IMG/VR virus record: IMGVR_UViG_3300020160_002621
Coordinates: 1-22,142 of that record
From: a virus
Direction: 5' to 3' (one strand)
DNA: 22,142 nt
Below the pieces are notes generated by a model. The model was given only the letters and a program-made list of their open reading frames with translations, was not told where the DNA came from and searched no databases. Of this stretch, positions 121 to 20,717 are shown one piece after another. The stretch's first letter is position 1. Each line of letters opens with the position of its first letter. Both the position numbers and the translations under genes were made by a program.

Positions 121-2889
121 TTAATCAAATATTACTTTGTTTAATTGCGTATTTGCAGGCACAAAAGAAGAAATATTGTCATTTATATAATTTTCAACAA
201 GATTCTGTAATGCAGAATCATTTGAGAAGTTCTTTATTCGAATATTAAAATAATTAGACTTAAATCCTTTGTAGCGATTTAAGTGAAATGTATCTATTTC
301 TTCAATCATTGTTATTTCTGGTGTGTTTATATAAAAAGAAATAGGTTGCCATTTATCATAACGACTGTTGAGATAAAGATTAAGAATTTGGAAATCATTT
401 AAAACTTTTTTATAAATTCTTACTTCATCAACTTCTCCAATAAAATATCCATTTTTTACAATAGCTTTTTCGATATTCTTTGCACCAAGTTTTCCAGTAA
501 TACCACCAATAATAAAAGGTGATGAGCGATATTGATAATCAATTTTATAATTTTTATTAAAGGTTTCTGTTTGAACAAGTCTTCCGTTTAAGTAAAACTT
601 AGCGGTTGTAGAATCTTTAGCGTTTTCTATTGTAAATGCTAAATGATTCCAACCTCTTGCTGATTTTGCAGGATAATCCATTCTGAGAAGCTTACGATCA
701 TTTCCGCATATAAGTTCTGCTCTTACTGAAAATGCTGGATTTTTAGGAGTAATTGGATCAGAGTTTACTCTTTCATATTTTCTCTTAGAATCAAATCCGC
801 TAAAATCTCCAGTTACATTTAAGTCGAAATCTTGACATAAACGCCCAGTGAAAAGATTTATTAGATTAATACGTTTAACTATATTCGCATCTGAATCTAA
901 AACTATAATTTGTTTTCCTTTATTAAAGATTATCCAAAGCTGAATTACTTCTTTATTGTTAGAATAATTTTTAACAAAGCTCATTTCACCGTCTGTGTTT
1001 GTAAACGAAAGAGAAAGTGTTTTTCTCATTAACAAAGTGCCTTTACTATCAGTTTTAATAATTTGATCTTTGAATAAAATCCATACGTTATCATAAAGAT
1101 CAAGCTTTAATGCTTGTGGTTTGTCTGTTAAGTGTAATACGCGATTATTGTTAATGTAAAGTGTAGGACCAACCATTTTAACAGGTTCATTAAGGCTATT
1201 AAATGTTAAAAATTCAGCAGAATCTACAACCACATTATTATTAAGATCTAATTCAAAAATATCTTGATAAGAAGGAATAACCCCACTTGATATATATTCG
1301 CCAAAAGAATTTATAGAAGAAATAGTTTTAGATGTGTTGTCTAAGAAATAAATGTTATTATTAGAGTCACAATCTATTTTTGTGATATTTGAATTACTTG
1401 GTAATGAAACGGTTTTAACTGCTAAATCATCATTTTCTATTTTATAAAGGTTATGATTATATGAATCGTATAACCAGCGATTACCAAATAAATCTGTTTT
1501 AACATAATCTATTGCTAATCCTGATAATCCTAAATCATCTTTAAGATCTTTTTCAAATACTTTATAGCCTTTATAATTTAATGCATAAAGATTATGCGAA
1601 CTAGTAGGAATAGAAATTAAATTGTTTGTTGTTCCAGTGTTGTAGAAAATTCCATAACCACTTTCGTTATAAAAATCTCCAAAAAACTGAGAATCGTTAT
1701 TATTGCTCCAGTCATTTGCATATGCCCATAAACCAACTGAAATGTCATTTTCAATAAACATCTGGTCTTCTGGCGGAATATGAGCATGAATGCCGCCATT
1801 AAGAATTAATGAATCAGAAGATTTAGGATAATCACCTACAACATATCCTGAAATTCCATTAACTTCTGATGAGAAATTTTTATCCCAATTTTTGAAATAT
1901 ATTTGTAAATCTGATGAGAAACTATTAACAAAAGTTTCGTTTCTATTAGGTCCATATCTTAAATAAGTTAATTTTTCTTTTTCAGAAAATATTTTATTTG
2001 ATGGAATGTCAGAGATGTATGAAAAACTAGAAGAAAGTGTATTTTTCTGAGATATAAACGCATTTCCTTGAGTTACAGTGTTTGGATCGTACCAACGTTC
2101 TGCCCATATTTTATTTGATGATGGTTCAACTGTTTGTGAAGAAAGCCATAAGCAAAGTAGTGTTCCGTTATTAAATGAGTTTACATTTTCTGGACCATTA
2201 TTATTATAAGAGCCGTATTCGCTTTGTTCAAAAAATATTACATCAGAATTTAATGGACAATCGCCACCAACAGCACCGTTATCAATAAAATCTGCATCGT
2301 TAATATAGCAAGAATTTATATTATATGAATTGAAAATAAGTGAATATTTATCAGGTTCTAAAACAAAAGGTATTTTATCAATTTTAAATTGTAAAAAAAG
2401 TGAATCTCCTACATCATATATTTTCTCATATTCTCTATAGTTTTCTGTATCAGAATAAAGATCATTATTAATAGAATATTTTGTTTTTAGCGGAAGAATA
2501 TTAAAATTTAAATCATTATCTACAATTCCTAAAAATTGAGTTTGATTATATGCTGTTGTGCTTTGTGAGAAATTATTTTTTATCCAATCATATTTTGTTA
2601 AAAATTCTTTCATATCATATCCACATGAAATTGAAGAAAATTGTGTTAATGAATCGAAATAAGATGAAAGATTTGAAAAGTCTGTTAAAAATGTGAAATA
2701 TGTATCAGAAAATTTAATATCTTTAAAAAATTTACTAAATTGTAAAAACCTTAAATCTAATTCACTTGTAAATAAACTTGATACAGAAATATTCAAATTT
2801 CTACTAGAATTTATAAAGTTCCAATCTTCTGAATTATAAACAGACGAAAAAGGATATAGACTAGATAATGCTGATAATGTAACGGACAT
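121..2889 (-). CDS. Large virion adhesin: LamG-like domain interrupted by a beta-propeller
   Basis: This 922-residue protein is probably a tail or baseplate adhesin. Residues 1-340 match no family I recognise and are rich in Ser, Asn, Phe and Tyr. Residues about 355-410 look like the first half of a LamG (concanavalin-type lectin) domain, with HAHIPPEDQMF followed by GLWAYANDWS. Residues about 430-690 carry blade-like segments of the NHL/SMP-30 propeller style (DLFGNRWLYDS, DSNNNIYFLDN, DLYDNVWILFKD). The LamG half then resumes: GWNHLAFTIE, FYLNGRLVQ and GEVDEVRIYKK (about 745-825). The last 80 residues (ending PANTQLNKVIFD) resemble short C-terminal arms of phage baseplate and tail proteins, perhaps an anchor. 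An exact TATAAATA lies 7 bases before the ATG. Virion location is inferred from neighbours. Confidence 0.7.
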   Translation of the reverse strand: MSVTLSALSSLYPFSSVYNSEDWNFINSSRNLNISVSSLFTSELDLRFLQFSKFFKDIKFSDTYFTFLTDFSNLSSYFDSLTQFSSISCGYDMKEFLTKYDWIKNNFSQSTTAYNQTQFLGIVDNDLNFNILPLKTKYSINNDLYSDTENYREYEKIYDVGDSLFLQFKIDKIPFVLEPDKYSLIFNSYNINSCYINDADFIDNGAVGGDCPLNSDVIFFEQSEYGSYNNNGPENVNSFNNGTLLCLWLSSQTVEPSSNKIWAERWYDPNTVTQGNAFISQKNTLSSSFSYISDIPSNKIFSEKEKLTYLRYGPNRNETFVNSFSSDLQIYFKNWDKNFSSEVNGISGYVVGDYPKSSDSLILNGGIHAHIPPEDQMFIENDISVGLWAYANDWSNNNDSQFFGDFYNESGYGIFYNTGTTNNLISIPTSSHNLYALNYKGYKVFEKDLKDDLGLSGLAIDYVKTDLFGNRWLYDSYNHNLYKIENDDLAVKTVSLPSNSNITKIDCDSNNNIYFLDNTSKTISSINSFGEYISSGVIPSYQDIFELDLNNNVVVDSAEFLTFNSLNEPVKMVGPTLYINNNRVLHLTDKPQALKLDLYDNVWILFKDQIIKTDSKGTLLMRKTLSLSFTNTDGEMSFVKNYSNNKEVIQLWIIFNKGKQIIVLDSDANIVKRINLINLFTGRLCQDFDLNVTGDFSGFDSKRKYERVNSDPITPKNPAFSVRAELICGNDRKLLRMDYPAKSARGWNHLAFTIENAKDSTTAKFYLNGRLVQTETFNKNYKIDYQYRSSPFIIGGITGKLGAKNIEKAIVKNGYFIGEVDEVRIYKKVLNDFQILNLYLNSRYDKWQPISFYINTPEITMIEEIDTFHLNRYKGFKSNYFNIRIKNFSNDSALQNLVENYINDNISSFVPANTQLNKVIFD

Positions 2890-2938: not shown

Positions 2939-3661
2939 TTAAGTTAGAGGTGTTATTTTAGATGCTATAACACATAATCTTTTTTTAGATATTGATTTAA
3001 ATAATACTTTGAAGTATTTGAAGCCCAAAGCTTTAAGCATATAAATTAGGATACGATCATCATTTGGTTTCCACGAAACGCCTTCAATGCCTGTTAAACC
3101 ATGTTCAAGTTCTTTACTTTCAGTATTAAATACTAAGCATGGTTTATCACTTTGCACACTAGGTTCATACATTGTATTAACTGTGATTACATCTGTTGTT
3201 AAATTAGCTACTTTGGCTAGATCTGCAAATGGGAATGCAAGATGGTAAAAAATACCATTGAAAAAAGTAATATCAAACGGTTGTAATGTATCTAAAATTT
3301 TGAAATCTGCAACTTCAAATGTGAGATTATCAGTATTGTAAAGGTTAATGTTTTGTTTGAGCCAATTTGCTTGATTGATCCACATGTCTCTTATATCAAA
3401 ACCAAAACCACTTTTGATGCCTAATTTTTGACATTCAAACAAATGCCCACCTGCATTACATGCAACGTCCAGCACAGTTTTATCTTTAATGGATTCGCCA
3501 AAAATCCTAGTTAGTGGTGCAGTGATATATTTCTGATTACTAAATCCACTATCAGGACTTAAAAAATAAGGTTGAGTTAAATCACTTGTTCTTAAAGTTT
3601 CGGTAATTTGGACATCATGATGCCATTTACCCATCAATTGTTCGTTATATGTTGGTTCCAT
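2939..3661 (-). CDS. Class I SAM-dependent methyltransferase
   Basis: This 240-residue protein has a Rossmann-type methyltransferase core. Motif I is VLDVACNAGG (residues 63-72), with an acidic residue ending the second strand (GFDI, D89) and a motif IV-like FDITFFNGIFYHL at about 129-141. The last resembles the Methyltransf_9/CmoB-like group, in which xxGxxYHL is typical. The start overlaps the last 17 bases of the upstream sulfotransferase, suggesting translational coupling. It is the third gene of a glycosyltransferase-sulfotransferase-methyltransferase run. A likely role is O-methylation of a glycan on a virion protein or at the cell surface. The substrate cannot be read from the sequence, and a tRNA or small-molecule substrate remains possible. 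Confidence 0.8.
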   Translation of the reverse strand: MEPTYNEQLMGKWHHDVQITETLRTSDLTQPYFLSPDSGFSNQKYITAPLTRIFGESIKDKTVLDVACNAGGHLFECQKLGIKSGFGFDIRDMWINQANWLKQNINLYNTDNLTFEVADFKILDTLQPFDITFFNGIFYHLAFPFADLAKVANLTTDVITVNTMYEPSVQSDKPCLVFNTESKELEHGLTGIEGVSWKPNDDRILIYMLKALGFKYFKVLFKSISKKRLCVIASKITPLT

Positions 3662-4274
3662 AATTAAATCTTGTAAATATTTCCTTTTCGGTTTTGTATA
3701 TAATATCCTTAGTGGATTGACTTATATTTTTTCTATCATAAACTTGTGCATTGATATGTGATGGTGGCATTAATATTTTCCCAGTTGCAAGATCCTTTAA
3801 GCGTTCAGCATTGTATGGTTCATTAATTTCATCAAGTATAGTTTGTAAATCTCTATATAAATGCTCTGATTTACCAACTTTAGTAACTTTATTAGTGGTT
3901 GGAAAATTAGCATCTTCGCCCATATACCTTTTTACTGTTATTGTAAATTTACCAAGCCAATCTTGTCCATAATCATTAATCCACTCGTCAAATGATTTAG
4001 TTTTAAGTTCCATATCATCAAATCTAGAATTTGTTTGTGTTTTATTCCAATAATACCATGAATGCCACCAAGTAATCGGGTTACGAATAAATGTGACATT
4101 AATTTTATTGTCTTCTGGCATTTGCGATGCAAATAAATGACCGTGATGAGGTGTTGTAAAAACCTGATTTTTATCTTTAATACACCCGATATTCCATAAT
4201 ATAGACTGAATCGCTGTACCTCCACATTTAGGTATATGAATAAACTTACTGTTTTGTAAAATCACATTAGACAT
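3645..4274 (-). CDS. PAPS-dependent sulfotransferase (Sulfotransfer_2-like)
   Basis: This 209-residue protein begins with the classic 5'-phosphosulfate-binding loop, FIHIPKCGGTAI (residues about 11-22), which binds the sulfate donor PAPS in carbohydrate sulfotransferases. The 3'-phosphate-binding motif follows as FIRNPITWWHSWY (62-74), with the expected Arg and Ser. The length is short but complete for phage and bacterial members. It lies 1 base after the GT8 gene stop and overlaps the methyltransferase start by 17 bases, so all three probably act on the same product. The family transfers sulfate to sugar hydroxyls or amines; here the acceptor is inferred to be the glycan built by the neighbouring GT8 enzyme. 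Confidence 0.82.
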   Translation of the reverse strand: MSNVILQNSKFIHIPKCGGTAIQSILWNIGCIKDKNQVFTTPHHGHLFASQMPEDNKINVTFIRNPITWWHSWYYWNKTQTNSRFDDMELKTKSFDEWINDYGQDWLGKFTITVKRYMGEDANFPTTNKVTKVGKSEHLYRDLQTILDEINEPYNAERLKDLATGKILMPPSHINAQVYDRKNISQSTKDIIYKTEKEIFTRFNYGTNI

Positions 4275-4275
4275 A

Positions 4276-5511
4276 TTATATATTATTTACTATCATATAG
4301 TTATCAATGTGTTCAAGTTTAACTTTTGCGTTTAATGCAGGTCCAATAAAGTGAAGTATCATTTCATTTGTATTTGGTGGCTCCATGTTGCCAAATCGCA
4401 CAATTCCATTTTCTGTATTACGTAAATTGCCAGTTGGTATGAGTTTCACCTTTTTATCAAAGACAATTGAGTTGGTAAGATTATTTACACAAAAATAGTA
4501 GTTCATAAATGATTGCTCAAAGAAATATTCACCAGGCCAATTCTGTATAAACCAATTTACATTTTCAAAATGTAATTTCATTTTTGAAGAATTTTTGAAT
4601 AAAAATTGACCTGCATTGAATGGCATCTGTTTGTTATCTGTCACAACAACATAGTCAGCATCGCTTATCATTGCAAACCCGTGATAGAAACTTGTTTTAT
4701 GCGATGCTAATGTGAGATTTTTGTTATATGCAGTGTAAAGTTTGTTGTATTGTATGTTTAAATTAAAGATTTCTGAGATGTCCTTTGTTACAATCGTATC
4801 AGCATCCAAATACAATATTTTCTCATAGTCATTTATTTTTTCATAATTAAATATAGTTGTTTTAACTTTTGATGCATCTACACCATCAATTGGAGTAGGT
4901 ACTAGTTTGTAAGATATTAATCTATTGTTTGCACCTAATGTTGTTACAATTTTTTGTTTTGTAGAAGCATCTGTAAATACCAAAATATCAAAGTTTGTAG
5001 CATCGCCTAGAGAATTAATTGATTTGACTAATAGGTTAACATAATCAATATCACCAAACACAACATAATATAGTAAATTTTTACCAGTACGAATATTTCT
5101 ACTAGTAGTCATATTTTTAACAGTTAAAGCTTTTGTTTTAACTTCATCTAATAACTGCCATTTTACCTCTTCGGTATCTTCGTATGGAGTATTGGTATTT
5201 TTACGCATCAATGTAGTTGGATTATACTGAATCCCTGATAATCCTTCGATTCGTGTTGATACATATCTACGTAAATCCTCTGCATTAACAGCTTTGTTTT
5301 TACTAATAGATACACTACTAATTTCACCTGTAACTGTTTTAATATTGAATATTAAATTGGATGCTTGTTGAAATACGTCATCATGTAATCCAACTGCACC
5401 AAAAATTAGTGTCTCTGATGCAAGAGGTATAGAATAATTGTTGATATTCATAGTCACAGTCTGAATGCTTGACAAATTATTTGTTATTAAAGTTGGAAGT
5501 AAGATTTTCAT
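4276..5511 (-). CDS. GT8-family glycosyltransferase with an extra N-terminal domain
   Basis: This 411-residue protein ends in a glycosyltransferase family 8 domain from about residue 147. It begins YYVVFGDIDYV, carries the metal-binding DxD motif in KILYLDADTIV (DAD at 226-228), the acceptor-site FNAGQFLFK and the late motif HFIGPALNAK. GT8 enzymes use nucleotide-sugar donors and Mn2+ with retention of configuration. Residues 1-140 are a beta-rich region I do not recognise. The frame is open further upstream to 5583, but the ATG at 5511 was chosen: it begins 1 base after the stop of the 443-residue gene, and the extension would overlap that gene by 71 bases. It heads the three-gene cassette that continues with the sulfotransferase and methyltransferase. 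Confidence 0.83.
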   Translation of the reverse strand: MKILLPTLITNNLSSIQTVTMNINNYSIPLASETLIFGAVGLHDDVFQQASNLIFNIKTVTGEISSVSISKNKAVNAEDLRRYVSTRIEGLSGIQYNPTTLMRKNTNTPYEDTEEVKWQLLDEVKTKALTVKNMTTSRNIRTGKNLLYYVVFGDIDYVNLLVKSINSLGDATNFDILVFTDASTKQKIVTTLGANNRLISYKLVPTPIDGVDASKVKTTIFNYEKINDYEKILYLDADTIVTKDISEIFNLNIQYNKLYTAYNKNLTLASHKTSFYHGFAMISDADYVVVTDNKQMPFNAGQFLFKNSSKMKLHFENVNWFIQNWPGEYFFEQSFMNYYFCVNNLTNSIVFDKKVKLIPTGNLRNTENGIVRFGNMEPPNTNEMILHFIGPALNAKVKLEHIDNYMIVNNI

Positions 5512-5512
5512 A

Positions 5513-6844
5513 TTATGTTGGACAGCTATATACAGTATCAACAGTACCGCTACCATTAGTGGTAATATATGTGTTATAACCATATCGGAATAATGTAGCG
5601 TTTACAATTTCATTTGATAATCCTATATCCGAGTAAAGAACAGCACTACTAGATTGTAATCCTTCATTAGATATTTCAGAAGATGGTGTATATAAAGTAT
5701 TATCATTAGTACTTCCGCAACCACTTGTAGTATAAGGTATTGAATATATACAACTTTCAGCACTTTGAATTTCACCACTAGATAGAATATATACCATTCC
5801 TGTATACACTATTTGACCTACAGTAGCGGCTGTGGTGAGTTGATTATCAATGTATAAAGTTACACCAACTTGTAGAGTTGCATCCGCATATGCGGTATAA
5901 TATGATGTATTTCCTCCACCATCTCTTGCGTTATTACAAGTATCATATGTAGTCCATTCTCTACTACATACTCCTTCAGATGATGACACTATACCTTCAG
6001 ATGATGCGGTGTAAAGATTATTATTATAAACAAAAGAACCAACATAGTATGTACCCAAGTTAGCATCCGTATATAAAGTTATACCAGGTTCAAGGGTACC
6101 TGACTCACTCCATACTGTATTGAAATTAGAACCAGCACAGTCGTCATAAATTATAAACGATGAAGGACAATCACCTGAATAATCTACAACACCACTAGTA
6201 GCAGTGTATATGGTACTGCCATATATAAATGAACCAGAATAAGGGGTAGATAAATTATCATCAATGTATAATGTCATACCAACCTCAAATGTAGTTGATT
6301 CACTATAAACGGTATCTGATGTGGTTTGAGCACAATCATTGTAAATTGTATACGCTGTAGGACATACGGCTGGACCACTGCTTGGAGCTAAAATTTCACC
6401 ACCACCATTTGTTCGGAATCTACTATTATTGTATATAAACAATGCTACATTAGTTAACAAGCTTGTTAACTCAGGATCTGTATATAAAAGTGTACCAATT
6501 TCTGGAACAGAATCATATAATGTGTATACTGTTGAAGGATTAGCGTTGTCGCAGTCGTCATATATAGTAAATGAATTGTAACAAAATAAAGCAGTAGTAA
6601 TATCACCATTACTATCAGTACTATACGTTTTATTATTATATATAAATGAGGTTTCTACTAATCGTGTAGTTAATTCAGGATCGGAGAATATCGTTCTTCC
6701 AATTATTATTGTAAGTCCATATTCAGTATATACATCATATGGGCTACTACCAGCGCAATCTGTAGTTACAGTATAAGAACTGTATATGGGTGGAGTACCA
6801 CCCCCTATGGAACTAGCTATTATACCTAAAACTACAGGAATCAT
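5513..6844 (-). CDS. Six-repeat cysteine-pair virion protein (putative adhesin)
   Basis: This 443-residue protein is made of six degenerate repeats of about 65-70 residues. Each opens with a pattern like YTIYDDC and holds a VYxE, a GxTLYxDxxL and an FIYNNxxY segment before a closing Cys. Cysteines come in regular pairs (C30/C88, C98/C161, C171/C226, C236/C293, C303/C365, C376/C441), suggesting one disulfide or metal pair per repeat. A short hydrophobic N-terminus (PVVLGIIASSIGGG) is present but is not a convincing signal peptide. No family name can be given. Its place among fibre genes and the beta-repeat style suggest an extended fibre or receptor-binding protein. It sits 1 base from the preceding gene and 1 base from the GT8 gene. 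Confidence 0.72.
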   Translation of the reverse strand: MIPVVLGIIASSIGGGTPPIYSSYTVTTDCAGSSPYDVYTEYGLTIIIGRTIFSDPELTTRLVETSFIYNNKTYSTDSNGDITTALFCYNSFTIYDDCDNANPSTVYTLYDSVPEIGTLLYTDPELTSLLTNVALFIYNNSRFRTNGGGEILAPSSGPAVCPTAYTIYNDCAQTTSDTVYSESTTFEVGMTLYIDDNLSTPYSGSFIYGSTIYTATSGVVDYSGDCPSSFIIYDDCAGSNFNTVWSESGTLEPGITLYTDANLGTYYVGSFVYNNNLYTASSEGIVSSSEGVCSREWTTYDTCNNARDGGGNTSYYTAYADATLQVGVTLYIDNQLTTAATVGQIVYTGMVYILSSGEIQSAESCIYSIPYTTSGCGSTNDNTLYTPSSEISNEGLQSSSAVLYSDIGLSNEIVNATLFRYGYNTYITTNGSGTVDTVYSCPT

Positions 6845-8634: not shown

Positions 8635-11157
8635 TTATCCTGTAACTGCAAAACCTTTGAGAATTGCTTTGTAAGTTTGAAGTGGGCGAAAAGTGAGTGT
8701 CGTTAACGTAGTGCCTGCCATTGGTCTAGACATTGTAACACTATTCCCTGCAATACTCACAATTGTTGAATTGTATTTAACTGTTCCATTTGTAGTGCTA
8801 GTTGTTAATGCTAATGCCGTCCCGCCTGGAGTTAATGAAATTTGAAATGTATTTGTAGCTTTATTAACTACATAATAAATTGTATTAATAGCAATTACAG
8901 CCTGAGCAGGAAGGCCAGTAGAATAAAATGAAACTTCATCTCCATTTTCAAGTCCATGATCGCTTAAACCTACTAAATTAGTACCGCTCGTAAATGTTAC
9001 TGATCTACCTGTTGTTAGTGGTGTATTAGTTCCTGTAACTTGCATTCCATTAGCCAAGCCAGCTACACTGTTTAAAGTAATTATAGTATTATTTGCTGCA
9101 TAGCTTATTGGATTTGCTGCCACAGTATTCCCTACTCCCCAATTGCTTGTTATTGTTATTGTTCTACCAGTAGGATTTGCTCCTACTGCTGTTCCTAAAT
9201 TTGCAAAAATAGTTTCAAGTGCTTCTTTTGATAATTTACAAGAAACAAATGATGCTGTATATTTTATATTAGTCATTAATACAGATGCGAGAGAAACACA
9301 ACCTGCAAATGTGTTTGTCAATAATGTTGCTGCATTAGCATTTATATTAGGAATAGATGCTAAAGATTGACAACCATTGAACATACTAGTTAAAGTTAAT
9401 GCTGCTGTGAAATCAAATGCTGGAATTGAAGTTAAAGAAGTACAATCTACAAACATATTAGCAAATGTAGTAACTTTAACAGTGTTGAATAGTGGAACAC
9501 TAACTAATGATCTACAACCACTAAACATTGTATCCATAATTGTCACATTTCCTGTACTAAATGCAGGAACAGTTTTTAATGAATAACAGTTCTGAAACAT
9601 GGTTGACATGGTTGTTGCAGTTGCTGTATTAAAAAAAGGAACAGATGTCAAATTATAACAGTTCTGAAACATAATACCAAAGTTAGATACAAGTGATGTA
9701 TTAAACAGAGACACTGTTTTTAAACTAAAACAACCTTGAAACATACTACCTAAAACTGTTAAAGCTGGTGTATTGAATGGAGGTGTGTAAACTAATGAAA
9801 TACAGCCTTGGAATGTGGTACTAAAAGTAGTTACTTTAATAGTATTAAATAACGGAACAGTTTCTAATGCAAAACAATTGAAAAACATGTTTTGCATACT
9901 AGTTACATTTCTTGTATCAAATAATGGTACTGTAGTTAAAGCGAAACAACCAGCAAACATAGAAAGCATACTTGTTACATTTATTGTGTTAAACAAAGGA
10001 ACGCTTATTAAGCTTCGGCAATCTTGAAACATACTTGCCATGGTTATTACACTACTGGTATTAAACAAAGGAACAGTTGTTAAAGAATAACATGTCTGAA
10101 ACATGCTTTGCATGGTTGTTGCACTTCTGGTATCAAATGCAGGTACATTTATTAGTGACTGACAGCTAGCAAACACAGAAGACATGGTTATTACCTTTCT
10201 GGTATCAAATGCAGGTACTGTTAGTAGAGTATAACAAGCATTAAACATACCAGCCATGGTTGTTACACTTCTGGTATCAAATAACGGAACAGATGTTAGA
10301 GTATAGCAGTTGGTAAACATAGTTGCCATGGTTGTTACACTACTGGTATCAAACAACGGAACGCTTATTAAAGAATAACAGTTTCCGAACATGGATGATG
10401 CATTTGCATTGCTTGAAAAATTTGTATCACTTGAAATAGTTATTTCTTTCAAAGCATAGCAATTGTTAAACATACTTGCTGTAGATGACACTGCTGCTGT
10501 TTTATCTATATCAATCTTTTGTAAGCCAGCAAACCCCGCAAAAAGAGATAAAAATGAATTGACAGTACCACTGTTAATTAAATTGACATAGCTAGCTTTT
10601 TTACAAAAAACATTAGCAGATGTTGTTGTTAATGTTCCTAAGTTGGGACCAGAAATATATATTTCTTCAATGGGCTGGCTATATGCGCTTGATGCTGCAA
10701 CCATAGAGGGGTGTCTTACTGCAAGGTTCAAAGATGTTAAGTTCTGGCCAGCTTGTGGAGTAATAATAACAATAGCTTGTTTAAACCCTAAAGATGTTAA
10801 AGTAGAATTAGTTGGATCATAAGTTGAATAATTATATTCATGATTTGCTTGGGTGCCAGTTGAAATATCTTCTACTACACCATCACCCCAATCAACTGTA
10901 TAATTTCCAGCAACAGTTAATGATAAAAAGTTTGAATTATCACTAGAAATAAAAACTAACAATGCTACTCTTTGCTCAGTATTAGCAATTGTAGGCATTG
11001 TCAAATAATCTGTCGATCTTACATAAGGTGTTGGTGTTGGTCTAAATAAAGCAGCAGTTCCAGCGTAAGGAAGATCATTTCTATTGTACGAAACAAAAGA
11101 AGAAGCAACTTTTTTAGTTGAGAGTGGACCAACTTTTTGACCGTAACGCGTACTCAT
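8635..11157 (-). CDS. Tail-fibre adhesin with 17 BspA-type leucine-rich repeats
   Basis: This 840-residue putative receptor-binding protein has four parts. Residues about 60-150 resemble a PKD-like domain (YTVDWGDG, then NHEYNYS). Residues about 234-625 are 17 units of about 24 residues with the pattern MFxxCxSLxxVPLF and DTxxVTTM, the BspA/DUF285 leucine-rich repeat of bacterial surface adhesins. Next comes a beta module (NSVAGLANGMQVTGTNTP). Into it is set a segment like the FCCH-type fibre domain (HGLENGDEVSFYSTG, about 735-750, then INTIYYVVN and FQISLTPGG). The beta module appears to resume at STIVSIAGNSVTMSRP, about 800. Surface binding is the known role of BspA repeats; the phage role is inferred. 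It starts 2 bases after the 121-residue gene. Confidence 0.82.
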   Translation of the reverse strand: MSTRYGQKVGPLSTKKVASSFVSYNRNDLPYAGTAALFRPTPTPYVRSTDYLTMPTIANTEQRVALLVFISSDNSNFLSLTVAGNYTVDWGDGVVEDISTGTQANHEYNYSTYDPTNSTLTSLGFKQAIVIITPQAGQNLTSLNLAVRHPSMVAASSAYSQPIEEIYISGPNLGTLTTTSANVFCKKASYVNLINSGTVNSFLSLFAGFAGLQKIDIDKTAAVSSTASMFNNCYALKEITISSDTNFSSNANASSMFGNCYSLISVPLFDTSSVTTMATMFTNCYTLTSVPLFDTRSVTTMAGMFNACYTLLTVPAFDTRKVITMSSVFASCQSLINVPAFDTRSATTMQSMFQTCYSLTTVPLFNTSSVITMASMFQDCRSLISVPLFNTINVTSMLSMFAGCFALTTVPLFDTRNVTSMQNMFFNCFALETVPLFNTIKVTTFSTTFQGCISLVYTPPFNTPALTVLGSMFQGCFSLKTVSLFNTSLVSNFGIMFQNCYNLTSVPFFNTATATTMSTMFQNCYSLKTVPAFSTGNVTIMDTMFSGCRSLVSVPLFNTVKVTTFANMFVDCTSLTSIPAFDFTAALTLTSMFNGCQSLASIPNINANAATLLTNTFAGCVSLASVLMTNIKYTASFVSCKLSKEALETIFANLGTAVGANPTGRTITITSNWGVGNTVAANPISYAANNTIITLNSVAGLANGMQVTGTNTPLTTGRSVTFTSGTNLVGLSDHGLENGDEVSFYSTGLPAQAVIAINTIYYVVNKATNTFQISLTPGGTALALTTSTTNGTVKYNSTIVSIAGNSVTMSRPMAGTTLTTLTFRPLQTYKAILKGFAVTG
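9290..10470 (-). repeat. 17 x 72-bp coding repeat (BspA leucine-rich repeats)
   Basis: The stretch is a tandem array of degenerate 72-base units within the 840-residue gene, each encoding 24 residues; phrases such as gtatcaaataacggaac recur with small changes. Period and frame are kept throughout, so unit gain or loss would leave the frame intact. Boundaries are approximate. Confidence 0.85.
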
Positions 11158-15398: not shown

Positions 15399-16649
15399 TT
15401 ATTCGTATTCTGAAAGCATAAAAGTTTTACTTTTAGGTGGAATACAATATTTATAACTATGAGATAAAAACCAATACCATCTTTCAGGTTTTTCAGGAGT
15501 CACCTTATCTCCCATACCATCTGTGATTAAAAATACTGCTTTTGGATATTTCTTTTTCTCTGAAGTTATTATCTTTTGAATATAATTTTCAATAATAGAA
15601 AAAGATGTTCCGCCACCTCCATAAACACGTCCACTTTCTAGTGTAGTTTCAAAAACTCTTGTATCAAAGCAAAAAAGACGTATATTAAACTTTTTAGGAT
15701 CTAAACTTTTTGCAGCTTTGAAAAAACGATCTTTTAAATTGATACAAGAACCAGAAGTATCTAGGAAAAAGAAAACATCAATTTTATTTTTATCTTTATA
15801 CTCGTCTAAAACTTTAGAATTTGTAGGCAGATGAATATGATTAGAAATTATCTGGGAATATCTTGGATTAACTCTTTCCCATCTTTCTGTTTCATTAATT
15901 GTTTCCTTTTTTATTGAATTTTCCCATTTTTTAATAACACTTTCCCACTTTTTCTTTATTTTAGCTTTTACATTAACAGTATGCCAAGAACCACTTCCAA
16001 AAGCTGAACGAGATAACTGTTCTTTTTCTTTTACTGGTAATTTATCAATAAAATCAGAGTCGATATTTTCTAAAACACCGTTTTTTTCTAAAAATTCACC
16101 AAGACTTTCCGCTTCTTCCGCAGATAAAACAGAATGTGAGTCTATAGAGAAAAATGAACGTTTCGAATCCTCATCTTCTTCTTTTAATTTATTAAAATAG
16201 TATTCTGTAGATTCGTTACTTTCAACTTTAACTTTTTCAAAAACAATGTCTAACCAACAACCCTCTTTTTTCAAAGAATCCATTAAGTTTTCACGAACAA
16301 ATCCAAAAGAGTCACAAAGCATTTCATTAATAACAACATCAGCAGCACGATTCATTCGTTCACAATCTTTTGTACCAAGATATTCAACAAATCGTTTACC
16401 GTGTTGAAGAATAATATGAGACATTTCGTGACAAACTAGAAACATTCGTGTTTCTTCATTTAAAGATTCCCAAAACGTTTTATTAATAAGAAATTGTAAT
16501 GCTTCACCTTTTAAATCAAAAGATATAGCAGCAGTAGGCAAATCTGAAAACTCACCTACTACTGGTGTTCCTATATCCCAAAAAGAACGGAAAAAATAAT
16601 GATATTTTTGCAATTTTCCTGCAATTTCTAATTTTTCTTCAATGTTCAT
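15399..16649 (-). CDS. Metallopeptidase-like HExxH plus VWA domain protein
   Basis: Of its 416 residues, the N-terminal part resembles the DUF2201-type putative metallopeptidase domain: HEMSH (74-78, an HExxH zinc motif) followed by MNRAADVVINEML (about 99-111). The C-terminal part is a VWA-like domain with a metal-ion-dependent adhesion site: DTSGS (297-301), a Thr in GGGGTSF (about 348) and D377 in FLITDGMGD. Such proteins are the usual partners of MoxR-type AAA+ ATPases. Its ATG shares a base with the TAA of the ATPase gene (TAATG), so the two are translationally coupled. Metal-assisted remodelling or maturation of a partner protein is a reasonable role; the target is unknown. Peptidase activity is not proven by the motif. 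Confidence 0.82.
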   Translation of the reverse strand: MNIEEKLEIAGKLQKYHYFFRSFWDIGTPVVGEFSDLPTAAISFDLKGEALQFLINKTFWESLNEETRMFLVCHEMSHIILQHGKRFVEYLGTKDCERMNRAADVVINEMLCDSFGFVRENLMDSLKKEGCWLDIVFEKVKVESNESTEYYFNKLKEEDEDSKRSFFSIDSHSVLSAEEAESLGEFLEKNGVLENIDSDFIDKLPVKEKEQLSRSAFGSGSWHTVNVKAKIKKKWESVIKKWENSIKKETINETERWERVNPRYSQIISNHIHLPTNSKVLDEYKDKNKIDVFFFLDTSGSCINLKDRFFKAAKSLDPKKFNIRLFCFDTRVFETTLESGRVYGGGGTSFSIIENYIQKIITSEKKKYPKAVFLITDGMGDKVTPEKPERWYWFLSHSYKYCIPPKSKTFMLSEYE

Positions 16650-18250
16650 TATAGTTCTAGTAAATCAATAATATTGTTTTTAGACTCTGAAACAGTTAAA
16701 ACTGAACGAATATCGCGAACTTTCTTTAAGAATGATTCTGGAATTGGTGTAATTGCATTACTACCTCCTAAATATCCAATATAGTCATTAATTCTATTAG
16801 AAGATAGTTTACCACCATAAGTTTTGATAAATTCAACCATTTGTTTTATTTCATCAGGTTTAAGAGTTTCCTTTGCAACTTTACAAACTGTTCCAAAAAC
16901 ACTTAAGAAATTTTTATCACTTGTAATAGTTCCTTTTTGCATAGACATAAGGCACGATAATACAAAATTTATCATATGATGCTTATTTTTAATAATATTC
17001 CAGCAAAGAGTAATAGTTGCTATTCCTTTTCGTCTTTCTGTTGTATTCATATTATATATTGTATTTTTTGGATCAAAAGTTTTTGGCAGATTTATACCTT
17101 GCCATTGATATAGAAATATACTAAATGAGTCTCCTATTGAGTTATTAACAGGTTTTAGAGTGTTGAAATTAGGCTCTGATGAAATAAAGTCATTAAGATT
17201 GTTTGTTTCTGGAACATAATTTTGATCTATTAATGTTTTTAAAATCTTAATAGATGTATTTTTAGGATTACTTTTTGCAATCTCTACAAAAATGTCTCTA
17301 TAGATCTTTTCTCTTAAAAGAGCATGATAAAGTGCATAATTTTCAAAATTCTCATCAGTTTTAACTTCATCTGTTAAAAGTTCTTTTTGAGCATACTTCC
17401 AATACTTCCAAAAACGAGGTTCTTTTAAACGCTTCTTATATTTTAAGATATTTTTCTCATCAGAAAAGAATAGTTTCATTTGTTCTTCATCTGGTTTGCT
17501 AAGAAGTAAGTTAATAAGTTCTTCCTTTTCATCCATTGATAGTCTTTTTACCAATTCTTTAACATTTGCCGAAACTGGTAGTAAAAATTTTATATCAAGA
17601 CCTTTATTAAAGGATTCTCCTACATAATCAAGTCTTCTTGGAGATAAAATCTTAAGTGCATCCTTTGGTTGATCATGCCACCAATCAACAAGAATTTTTC
17701 CACGATAATCACCAAACTTTTGATGAAAATATTTTACATCAGGTTCATTTGGAAGCTCTACAACAATATGAAAACGATCAAGTTGAGCAGGATCAAGTTC
17801 ATCAACATCATAATCTGAACCATCTTCGTCTTCTCCTTTTGGTGGATTTACTGCACCCCAAACCATTTTAAGTTTTGGAAACTTACGACCATTAATAGAT
17901 TTAAATTGCTGAAGTTCAAGTAATGCATTACGAACAACTTTATTTGTTCTGTTCCACTCATCGCAAAAAATAGCTTCAACATCATCATCAAGATTTTCTG
18001 GAAGAATAAACTCCATTTTTTCTTTACCATCTGCGCCAAGTTTTGCTTTAGGAATACCTAAAAGATGAATCCATGGATCAAGAGTTGCACCAGAGAAATA
18101 AGCATATTTTAGATTATTTCGGTTAAAGGTGTTAATAATGTGATGAGATTTACCGACCCCTTTTTCTCCAATGAGAAGAACGTTGACCTCGGTTTTTACC
18201 CACTGATCTAATATTTCTGAATTTAATTTGCATTTATTGAATTTAATCAT
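16649..18250 (-). CDS. MoxR-type AAA+ ATPase
   Basis: This 533-residue protein holds a full AAA+ core in its first 210 residues: Walker A GEKGVGKS (28-35), Walker B IFCDEWNR (94-101), sensor 1 in VWGAVNPP (N135), a candidate arginine finger in LDPAQLDRF (R159) and sensor 2 in ILSPRRLDYV. Layout and the DExNR version of Walker B fit the MoxR group, which act as ATP-driven chaperones with a VWA partner, encoded here by the next gene. Residues about 215-533 are a helical extension of unknown function. The start follows a short hairpin just downstream of the gp15-like gene. It lies in the tail-gene strand between tail completion and fibre genes, suggesting a virion-assembly role (inference). Confidence 0.85.
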   Translation of the reverse strand: MIKFNKCKLNSEILDQWVKTEVNVLLIGEKGVGKSHHIINTFNRNNLKYAYFSGATLDPWIHLLGIPKAKLGADGKEKMEFILPENLDDDVEAIFCDEWNRTNKVVRNALLELQQFKSINGRKFPKLKMVWGAVNPPKGEDEDGSDYDVDELDPAQLDRFHIVVELPNEPDVKYFHQKFGDYRGKILVDWWHDQPKDALKILSPRRLDYVGESFNKGLDIKFLLPVSANVKELVKRLSMDEKEELINLLLSKPDEEQMKLFFSDEKNILKYKKRLKEPRFWKYWKYAQKELLTDEVKTDENFENYALYHALLREKIYRDIFVEIAKSNPKNTSIKILKTLIDQNYVPETNNLNDFISSEPNFNTLKPVNNSIGDSFSIFLYQWQGINLPKTFDPKNTIYNMNTTERRKGIATITLCWNIIKNKHHMINFVLSCLMSMQKGTITSDKNFLSVFGTVCKVAKETLKPDEIKQMVEFIKTYGGKLSSNRINDYIGYLGGSNAITPIPESFLKKVRDIRSVLTVSESKNNIIDLLEL

Positions 18251-18252
18251 AC

Positions 18253-18272
18253 GATGTAACCTAAGTTACATC
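18253..18272 (-). other. 8-bp perfect hairpin between gp15-like and ATPase genes
   Basis: The 8-base arms gatgtaac and gttacatc are perfectly complementary around a 4-base loop (ctaa). On the minus strand the stem includes the stop codon of the gp15-like gene and ends 2 bases before the ATPase ATG. It lacks a T-run, so it is not a clear terminator; it may alter initiation on the ATPase gene. Confidence 0.45.
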
Positions 18273-19531
18273 ACTGCGGACAGTTCTGCAAGCGAAATAT
18301 TGCATCCAGACATGATTTGTAGGATTGCTGTTATTGCAACATCTTTATCACACTCACCTTCTGTATAAATTGTTTGAGTGTCGTGATAATCAATGCATAA
18401 TGGATCGAAAAAGTCTGCAATTATTAATCCGTTAAGATATGGAAATTGTAAAACAGTCCATGTATAGTGATTTGGATCATCATTTGGATAAGGATTTTCA
18501 ACACGATTGCAACGATTTGCATCTTCTGTTAATAAACCGTAACCGCATGTATTAACCGCAATAATGTCAACAAAACCGTTTGCACTTGGCGGAGGAAGAG
18601 TAAAAGTTATTGTATTATCATTTTTCGAAAACTCACTTACAGGAAATGCGTTAAAAGAGTCAAGTGCAGAAAATGGTTGAAAGGTTGACATGGGATACAT
18701 AGCTGGATCTGAACCACTAAGGAATACTCCATTAACATCTCCGAAACTATAACCTTGTAGTTTTATTGTAGGAGATTGACCTTCAACAATATAATACGGT
18801 GAAACATAACGAAGAACAGGTCTTCCTGTAATAGCATAAGTTTCTGTAGTATTTCCGCTTGTATATTTTGTTAAATTATCATAATTACAGTAAAATTTAT
18901 CAGTAAACACATAATCTGTTTCTATAAAACAAATAGGTGTGGAATTTTCAACTTCTGTTTTAAAAACATATCCTTTAATAGTAAAAGAGGTTGTTGCAGT
19001 AACTCTAAAAGGCGGATCTTTTGCGCCTTGGTTTTTACCAGGATAATCATAAGCTACATTTCCATCCCAAAGTATTTCTGTTCTTATTTCTCGACCAGAT
19101 TTAGGTTCTTGCCAAGAAACAATAATATATGGATCTGTATTAACTGCAAAGTTTTGAATAATTTGATCCATGTCTTCTTGAAACTTTGTAAGAATGTTTA
19201 ATTGAACCTGAATATTCCATGGAACAACTTTTAAATTAACATAAGTGCCATCGTTGTTTCGATATTTAATATCTTCGATTTTATTTTTTACTCTAGAATT
19301 GTCTCTACCTTGACCTTTAATTTCAACTGCCATAATAGGAAGTCGAACAGTATCAGTTGGTCCTAATAAATCCGAAACAATATGACTTTTTGGTGCATAA
19401 ACAAATGGAACTTTAACAATTTCCTTCGAATATTTTTTACCGTCAAATCTTTTAATCTTTACGCCATCAAATGCAGCAGCGAAATGAGTTAAAAGAGTGC
19501 GAATCTCGAAATTATAGTTATATTCATCCAT
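18266..19531 (-). CDS. gp15-like tail sheath stabiliser / completion protein, copy 2 (with TIG-like domain)
   Basis: This 421-residue protein carries the T4 gp15 pattern: an N-terminal YNYNFEIRTLLTHF, then KRFDGKKYSKEIVKVPFVYA, the TKFQEDMDQIIQNF segment (compare T4 gp15 TRYEDDMFQIVEQI) and a late GYVFKTEVEN. T4 gp15 caps the tail tube and sheath and joins tail to head. Residues about 245-345 are a TIG-like (immunoglobulin-type) domain (LRYVSPYYIVEGQSP, then IKLQGYSFGDVNGVFLSGSD). The extra C-terminal region (about 350-421) carries several Cys and no LxLD tail, unlike copy 1. Tandem exact TATAAATA elements lie upstream of the ATG. It is well over half identical to copy 1. Confidence 0.78.
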   Translation of the reverse strand: MDEYNYNFEIRTLLTHFAAAFDGVKIKRFDGKKYSKEIVKVPFVYAPKSHIVSDLLGPTDTVRLPIMAVEIKGQGRDNSRVKNKIEDIKYRNNDGTYVNLKVVPWNIQVQLNILTKFQEDMDQIIQNFAVNTDPYIIVSWQEPKSGREIRTEILWDGNVAYDYPGKNQGAKDPPFRVTATTSFTIKGYVFKTEVENSTPICFIETDYVFTDKFYCNYDNLTKYTSGNTTETYAITGRPVLRYVSPYYIVEGQSPTIKLQGYSFGDVNGVFLSGSDPAMYPMSTFQPFSALDSFNAFPVSEFSKNDNTITFTLPPPSANGFVDIIAVNTCGYGLLTEDANRCNRVENPYPNDDPNHYTWTVLQFPYLNGLIIADFFDPLCIDYHDTQTIYTEGECDKDVAITAILQIMSGCNISLAELSAVM

Positions 19532-19547: not shown

Positions 19548-20717
19548 TTAAATGACAGAATCAAGTCCTAAGATTTCAGAACCATCTAATGATAAAAAGG
19601 TTATATCATCATCTAATAAAAGACCTCCGTAAACAATAGTGCATGTTAAAGGATAATTTACAAGTGAAATTAATCCACTAGCGTAAGGATAATATGTAGC
19701 AGAGTCTTCTGTTAATATTCCGTATCCGCATGTATTAACAGCAATAATATCTATAAATCCACTTGAACTTGGCGGTGGAAGTGAGAATGATAAGAAATTT
19801 AATGATTTAGAAAACTCATTTACAGGATACCCATTAAAAGAATCAAATGCAGAAAATGGTGTAAATGAACAAAGTGGATACATTTCACTATTAGAACCGC
19901 TTACATAAACACCAATAGTGTCATGAAAGCTATATCCTGTTATATTAATAATTGGTGAAGTGCCTTCTTTAATATAGTATGGCGAAACAAATCGTAGAAT
20001 TGGTCTTCCAGTTATAGAATATGACTCTGTTATAGAATCATCTATATATGCTGTAAGAGTTTTATAGTTACAGAAAAAATCATCTGTAAAAGAAATATCA
20101 GTGTTTATTAAACAAATAGGTTTTGGATTTTCTATATAAGTTTTAAACAAATAACCTTTAATAGTAAACGAAGTTGTTGCAGTAACTCTAAAAGGTGGTT
20201 CTTTTGGCGAATAATTTGCTGTTGCAGGATATTCTAGTGAAACATCACCGTTCCAAAGTATTTCGGTTCTTATTTCTCGACCTGATTTTGGTTCTCTCCA
20301 TGAAATTATTGCATATGGATTAGTGTTAACTGAAAAGTTTTGAATAATTTGGTCCATATCTTCTTGAAACTTTGTAAGAATAGTCATTTCAATTTCTATA
20401 TTCCAAGGTATTGCTTGAAGCGCAACATATGAACCGTCGTTGTTTTTATAAACAAGTTTATCAATTTTATTTTTTACTCTTTTATTATCACGATTCTCTG
20501 ATTTTATTTCTGCTGCCATTACTGGAAGACGAATAGCGTCTGCAACACCTACAACATCATTAAGAATATGGCTTTTAGGAGAATAAACTAAAGGAACCTT
20601 TATAACTTCTTTTGAGAATTTATTACCGTCAAATCTTTTAATCTTTACACCATCAAATGCTGAAACGAAATGTAAAAGTAAGTTTCTTTTCTCAAAATTG
20701 TAGTTATAATCTTCCAT
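19548..20717 (-). CDS. gp15-like tail sheath stabiliser / completion protein, copy 1 (with TIG-like domain and LxLD tail)
   Basis: This 389-residue protein is a paralogue of copy 2, which starts 16 bases past its stop. It has the same gp15 landmarks (YNYNFEKRNLLLHF, TKFQEDMDQIIQNF, RVTATTSFTIKGYLF) and a TIG-like domain (about 245-340, LRFVSPYYIKEGTSP). The C-terminus differs: it ends in a tail of LxLD units (LLLD, LSLD, LGLD) shared with the 259-residue protein at 7395-8174. In T4-type phages a single gp15 caps the tail. Two copies with surface-type extensions suggest that the second has a new role, such as a collar or distinct terminator ring. CATAAATA lies 6 bases upstream of the predicted start site. 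Confidence 0.78.
   Translation of the reverse strand: MEDYNYNFEKRNLLLHFVSAFDGVKIKRFDGNKFSKEVIKVPLVYSPKSHILNDVVGVADAIRLPVMAAEIKSENRDNKRVKNKIDKLVYKNNDGSYVALQAIPWNIEIEMTILTKFQEDMDQIIQNFSVNTNPYAIISWREPKSGREIRTEILWNGDVSLEYPATANYSPKEPPFRVTATTSFTIKGYLFKTYIENPKPICLINTDISFTDDFFCNYKTLTAYIDDSITESYSITGRPILRFVSPYYIKEGTSPIINITGYSFHDTIGVYVSGSNSEMYPLCSFTPFSAFDSFNGYPVNEFSKSLNFLSFSLPPPSSSGFIDIIAVNTCGYGILTEDSATYYPYASGLISLVNYPLTCTIVYGGLLLDDDITFLSLDGSEILGLDSVI

Follow-up and report, generated by a model that had tools for sequence, protein, structure and literature searches.

The window, meaning the whole stretch of DNA analyzed here, is an IMG/VR record of 22,142 bp. Its markers (two gp15-type tail-sheath stabilizers, an Hc2-like head-closure protein and a prohead protease) assign it to a divergent T4-like myovirus, with the structural markers at most about 40% identical to their best matches among known phages. 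At one end of the window, five genes follow one another on the minus strand, listed in the order of transcription.

5513-6844, minus strand: repeat fiber protein, 443 aa, candidate acceptor (seven repeat matches)
4276-5511, minus strand: predicted GT8 glycosyltransferase, 411 aa (Pfam, AF2/Foldseek, conserved residues)
3645-4274, minus strand: predicted PAPS-dependent sulfotransferase (ST), 209 aa (PHROG 3347, AF2/Foldseek, invariant residues)
2939-3661, minus strand: class I SAM methyltransferase (MT), 240 aa, accessory third gene (Pfam)
121-2889, minus strand: LamG-domain adhesin-like protein, 922 aa, the next gene past the cassette (Pfam Laminin_G_3, 3e-11)

The fiber/GT8 and GT8/ST junctions are each 1 bp, ST and MT overlap by 17 bp, and 49 bp lie between MT and the LamG gene. 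An earlier note had placed three adjoining enzyme genes here and called their families recognizable; the three genes are confirmed at that place. GT8 and MT exceed Pfam cut-offs, and both sequence and AlphaFold/Foldseek support the folds assigned to GT8 and ST as well as their key residues. Promoter and terminator scans gave nothing informative on the cassette. The starts at 2889, 3661, 4274, 5511 and 6844 are preceded by A/T-rich stretches without a clear Shine-Dalgarno motif, a context that might hint at a Bacteroidota-like host.

Elsewhere in the window, the gp15-type stabilizer is duplicated in tandem (18266-19531 and 19548-20717, minus strand), the two copies sharing 66% identity over 339 aa and differing at their C-terminal ends. 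Between gp15 and the fiber block (15399-18250, minus strand), a DUF2201/VWA-like metallopeptidase protein and an AAA ATPase-like protein (PHROG ATPase, 1e-10) are encoded with a one-base gene overlap, a MoxR/VWA-like pair in a phage. The fiber block also encodes an 840-aa protein with seven stretches of the DUF285 surface-protein repeat (8635-11157, minus strand; 9e-62).

The GT8 protein matches Pfam Glyco_transf_8 (PF01501) at 1e-6, over the cut-off, and consists of an N-terminal beta-rich domain of ~100 aa followed by a GT-A catalytic domain. Its AlphaFold model (AF2, family alignment) has a mean pLDDT of 86 and matches WbbM, LgtC and glycogenin in Foldseek. Residues D236, D238, N299, A300, G301, Q333, H387 and K398 are invariant in 33 relatives and all present in the window protein, as is the pair E332-Q333, likewise invariant in the family alignment. 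They include the DxD metal motif and the family's conserved acceptor and His residues, taken as equivalent to residues of LgtC. The protein is predicted to be a GT-A enzyme of family 8 with retaining transfer from a nucleotide sugar. A start at 5583, which gives the longest ORF and lies inside the fiber gene, was rejected. The conserved start is the ATG at 5511 (MKILLP...), where a GT8 ortholog begins straight after its own fiber stop and where the model has a strand. With this start there is no N-terminal membrane segment, and none is predicted elsewhere in the window GT8 model. When six GT8 queries (one being a GT8-ST fusion, described below) were run by tblastn against 50,697 phage records, no match was obtained, and two scans of 84,980 bacterial and archaeal genomes found no relatives. 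At the search sensitivity used, the family therefore seems restricted to phages that have not been cultured.

The window ST has no Pfam match of its own, and its only PHROG match is to PHROG 3347, 'Galactose-3-O-sulfotransferase' (9e-5). Its orthologs match Pfam Sulfotransfer_2 below the cut-off, and 20 of 22 paired ST homologs match that family (E up to 0.01). The AlphaFold model (AF2, family alignment) has a mean pLDDT of 86; every PDB match listed by Foldseek is a sulfotransferase, SULT2A1 and HS2ST among them, two at E < 0.001. The PAPS-binding (5'-PSB/3'-PB) residues K16, R64 and S72 are invariant in the alignment and present in the window. Fold and residues support the prediction of a PAPS-dependent, Sulfotransfer_2-like sulfotransferase. 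The only PDB matches found by sequence were to interleukin-2, and they were discarded as chance. In the 50,697 phage records, tblastn found no match to the window ST, and the sole match of one paired-clade ST was to Pelagibacter phage Mosig at 26% identity in another gene context. A separate type of phage sulfation cluster occurs at L096, L099, L100 and similar loci, where up to six distinct sulfotransferase-like genes lie within about 8 kb without a GT8 of the cassette family.

The MT matches Pfam Methyltransf_9 and Methyltransf_31, both at 2e-8 and over the cut-off. Its SAM-binding motif is DVACNAGGH, with DxACNAGGH kept in four homologs.

Conservation of the gene order was examined by a GT8 alignment search of IMG/VR viral contigs, which gave 34 loci. 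These were clustered at 70% identity, and the GT8-first loci were counted. ST is the next gene after GT8 in 18 of 23 non-redundant GT8s, and in a 19th one gene lies between, compared with 2 of the 169 other ORFs in GT8 loci (Fisher p = 7e-19), where the ST HMM was built from GT8 neighbors, most being confirmed independently by Pfam, and related sequences are partly non-independent. Wherever the pair occurs, GT8 precedes ST, and in most cases the two ORFs overlap, by 4-74 bp; some of these overlaps hinge on the choice of start codon. When the search started from ST, GT8 was found directly upstream in 28 of the 30 closest matches, one of the remaining two being cut by a contig end. More distant STs mostly lack GT8 upstream. 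A subgroup of window-type STs (L127, L129-L133 and L138) has no cassette-family GT8, the upstream genes being, where inspected, GT2-like by reading alone. Distances among the GT8s are correlated with those among the STs (matrix comparison, r = 0.57; 0 of 2000 permutations). GT8-ST adjacency is far beyond chance.

Three relatives show what is kept and what is exchanged. L002 (84.8 kb) has fiber, GT8, ST and MT in the window's order with the identical 17-bp ST/MT overlap, at 81%, 80% and 89% identity for GT8, ST and MT, respectively. The L001 contig (80.9 kb) starts within GT8, of which the final 19 residues are left, and continues with ST and with an MT match over the first 31 residues only; next come a GT9-like gene, which stays under the Pfam cut-off, and a gene for an FkbM methyltransferase. 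In L033, a repeat fiber precedes GT8 and ST, and a LamG protein 45% identical to the window's lies downstream of the pair, with the ST belonging to another subgroup (15-20% identity to the window ST). Thus, the third gene and the ST type are swapped while GT8 plus ST persists. Besides the window, three records contain MT, and L001 keeps the 31-aa remnant; all four loci found by an MT-first scan, the remnant included, sit behind GT8-ST. Since relatives have lost or replaced MT, the idea that the three enzymes form a fixed unit was rejected. GT8 and ST are the core, and MT is an optional, exchangeable third gene.

A distant lineage shows further coupling. L126 encodes a single 538-aa protein in which GT8 is joined through a short proline-containing linker to a complete ST, and an APS kinase gene (Pfam 1.6e-25) comes next. 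L124 and L125 have consecutive genes for GT8, ST, MT and APS kinase, and their MTs share 50% and 46% identity, respectively, with the window MT. APS kinase, the enzyme that makes PAPS, adjoins the cassette in five records, immediately following its ST. In three lineages, extra GT8 copies stand in tandem by the GT8-ST pair (L012 4554-6978, L025 5917-8976 and L047 1402-4017), which might mean longer glycans.

The earlier note took tight coupling as a sign of one pathway, and the conserved adjacency, the fusion and the four-gene rows of the distant lineage support it. We conceive that GT8 would move a hexose from a nucleotide sugar onto an acceptor, that ST would put sulfate from PAPS on the newly added sugar, and that MT would O-methylate the product. 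In some phages, the APS kinase behind ST would supply the PAPS. Fusion, gene rows and MT linkage support, but do not prove, sugar transfer, sulfation and optional methylation on one product, as judged from sequence. A shared glycan pathway for GT8 and ST is well supported, the target is not; that GT8, ST and MT act in sequence on one sugar is probable.

In the window phage, the likeliest acceptor would be the Ser/Thr/Tyr-rich repeat fiber encoded 1 bp upstream of GT8. Fiber and cassette apparently form one late operon, and the adhesin would come to carry a charged glycan specified by the phage. The fiber is built of Cys/Tyr repeats of ~60-65 aa with conserved Tyr residues and has no Pfam or PHROG match. 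Five clusters have the repeat, each time in the gene immediately preceding GT8, and it turned up in no other position, most loci having been fetched through GT8 or ST. For a marker search independent of GT8, the alignment of repeat units was too diverged, and a narrower alignment matched only a near-identical copy of the window phage, cut at a contig end. More broadly, about 20 of 28 GT8-ST clusters flank a fiber or adhesin gene (neighbors read by eye), and 6 of 28 have genes for sheath, neck or head closure as neighbors. Proteins upstream of GT8 match tail-fiber and baseplate PHROGs, and the fibers flanking the pairs are heterogeneous, without a single common acceptor. Two clusters (L123/L124/L126 and L125) carry the full cassette elsewhere, away from fiber genes. 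The embedding among fiber genes that had been noted in the window thus holds for most relatives and fails for one lineage. Relatives with the genes single and unlinked to fibers had been named as evidence against the earlier note; L123-L126 are unlinked but keep the cassette whole, so that only half of this was found. As our best explanation, a glycan-modification cassette acting on the window phage's own fiber has an even chance of being right.

With the same enzymes and pathway, the sugar could instead be added to the envelope of the host, be it to LPS/O-chain, capsule or some other surface glycan. Receptors would then be altered or masked, either to exclude superinfecting phages or to keep progeny off debris. 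GT8s in the host-recognition cluster of pelagimyophages have been proposed to be such O-chain modifiers (PMC7029224). The LPS enzyme LgtC is among the closest folds of the window GT8, GT9-like and GT2-like partners occur at some loci, and in the GT8s of L017 and L031 the C-terminal tail is basic and could bind membranes. The lineage away from fibers also fits the envelope. On the other hand, the 1-bp coupling of fiber and GT8 lies inside a structural block, the window GT8 is without a predicted membrane segment, and a host-glycan pathway might have left some relatives among the bacterial and archaeal genomes, which yielded none. No flippase was recognized among the window genes. Because of the autonomous lineage, the basic GT8 tails and the published O-chain preference, we rate the tail fiber as acceptor at about one chance in two, and the envelope, its main rival, as somewhat less likely.

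ST could also sulfate Tyr of the fiber repeats in the manner of a tyrosylprotein sulfotransferase (TPST), with no part played by the GT8 sugar; GT8 and ST would then be neighbors only as both modify the fiber. The conserved Tyr residues of the repeat fit this, and human TPST is among the weaker fold matches of ST, but TM-scores are higher for HS 2-O-sulfotransferase (0.52-0.58) than for TPST2 (0.40-0.42), and the sole PHROG match is a galactose-3-O-sulfotransferase family. Moreover, GT8 and ST occur together in lineages without the repeat fiber, and their fusion favors a common product, making Tyr sulfation very unlikely. Slightly less likely still is that ST and APS kinase serve the host sulfur economy with GT8 as an unrelated neighbor: phage sulfotransferases are as a rule counted among accessory metabolic genes, with a function called unclear (PMC10580990), but the near-obligate GT8 pairing, the fusion (which by itself already disfavors it) and the structural-block location in most lineages speak against it.

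Some known systems come close to the cassette. Pelagimyophages are aquatic T4-like phages that, like the window phage, have GT8 genes among their tail-fiber genes; the searched text of their description (PMC7029224) contains no word beginning with 'sulfo' and does not describe GT8-ST coupling, the fusion or the APS kinase. In mycobacteriophages, virion glycosylation is known (Freeman et al. 2023, as cited in PMC12619734, PMC13313380): phage glycosyltransferases decorate capsid and tail proteins, and methyltransferases have been proposed alongside them in related phages. Those are different phages, the accessible portions of these sources mention no sulfotransferase, and the target is shown there whereas for the cassette it is predicted.

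Chlorovirus PBCV-1 A064R places a GT-A glycosyltransferase, a second glycosyltransferase and a SAM methyltransferase in sequence on one chain to build one methylated virion glycan (PMC9614988). Unlike the cassette, it belongs to a eukaryotic algal virus and makes an N-glycan of the major capsid protein with rhamnose and methyl but, as far as the available part of that review goes, no sulfate, the word sulfotransferase being absent there. PAPS sulfotransferase genes also occur in aquatic phages such as Pelagibacter phage Mosig (PHROG 3347), and their function in phages has been called unclear (PMC10580990). Unlike the cassette, these are single genes or lie in other glycan clusters, as in Mosig, where other glycosyltransferases and methyltransferases are nearby, beside nucleotide-metabolism genes.

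Literature on phage sulfotransferases with a tail fiber or a glycosyltransferase did not describe the GT8-ST pair; in the searchable literature, the unit and its fusion appear undescribed. We know of no earlier sulfated glycan on a phage adhesin, so the fiber reading, if true, would be the first. The recurrence of GT8 plus ST in many uncultured phages, once fused, suggests an undescribed decoration of their own fibers or of the host surface. A widespread phage system that puts sulfated, sometimes methylated, sugars on tail fibers through a GT8-ST pair of its own, in some cases as a fusion and alongside a dedicated APS kinase gene in the phage, is, taken as a whole, conceivable, with the balance tipping somewhat against it.

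With their near-obligate pairing to one GT8 family, up to fusion, a group of phage STs can be placed in a sugar-then-sulfate pathway that is open to testing, and a general role in sulfur metabolism becomes less likely. If the fiber-sulfation reading is true, a function would be assigned to a set of phage STs whose role has been called unclear. Whichever the target, direct assays are feasible for GT8 with ST, for their fusion and for the gene rows with APS kinase. Placed on the fiber, a sulfated glycan would let phages adjust the charge or mimicry of the adhesin; placed on the host surface, it would be a new exclusion mechanism.
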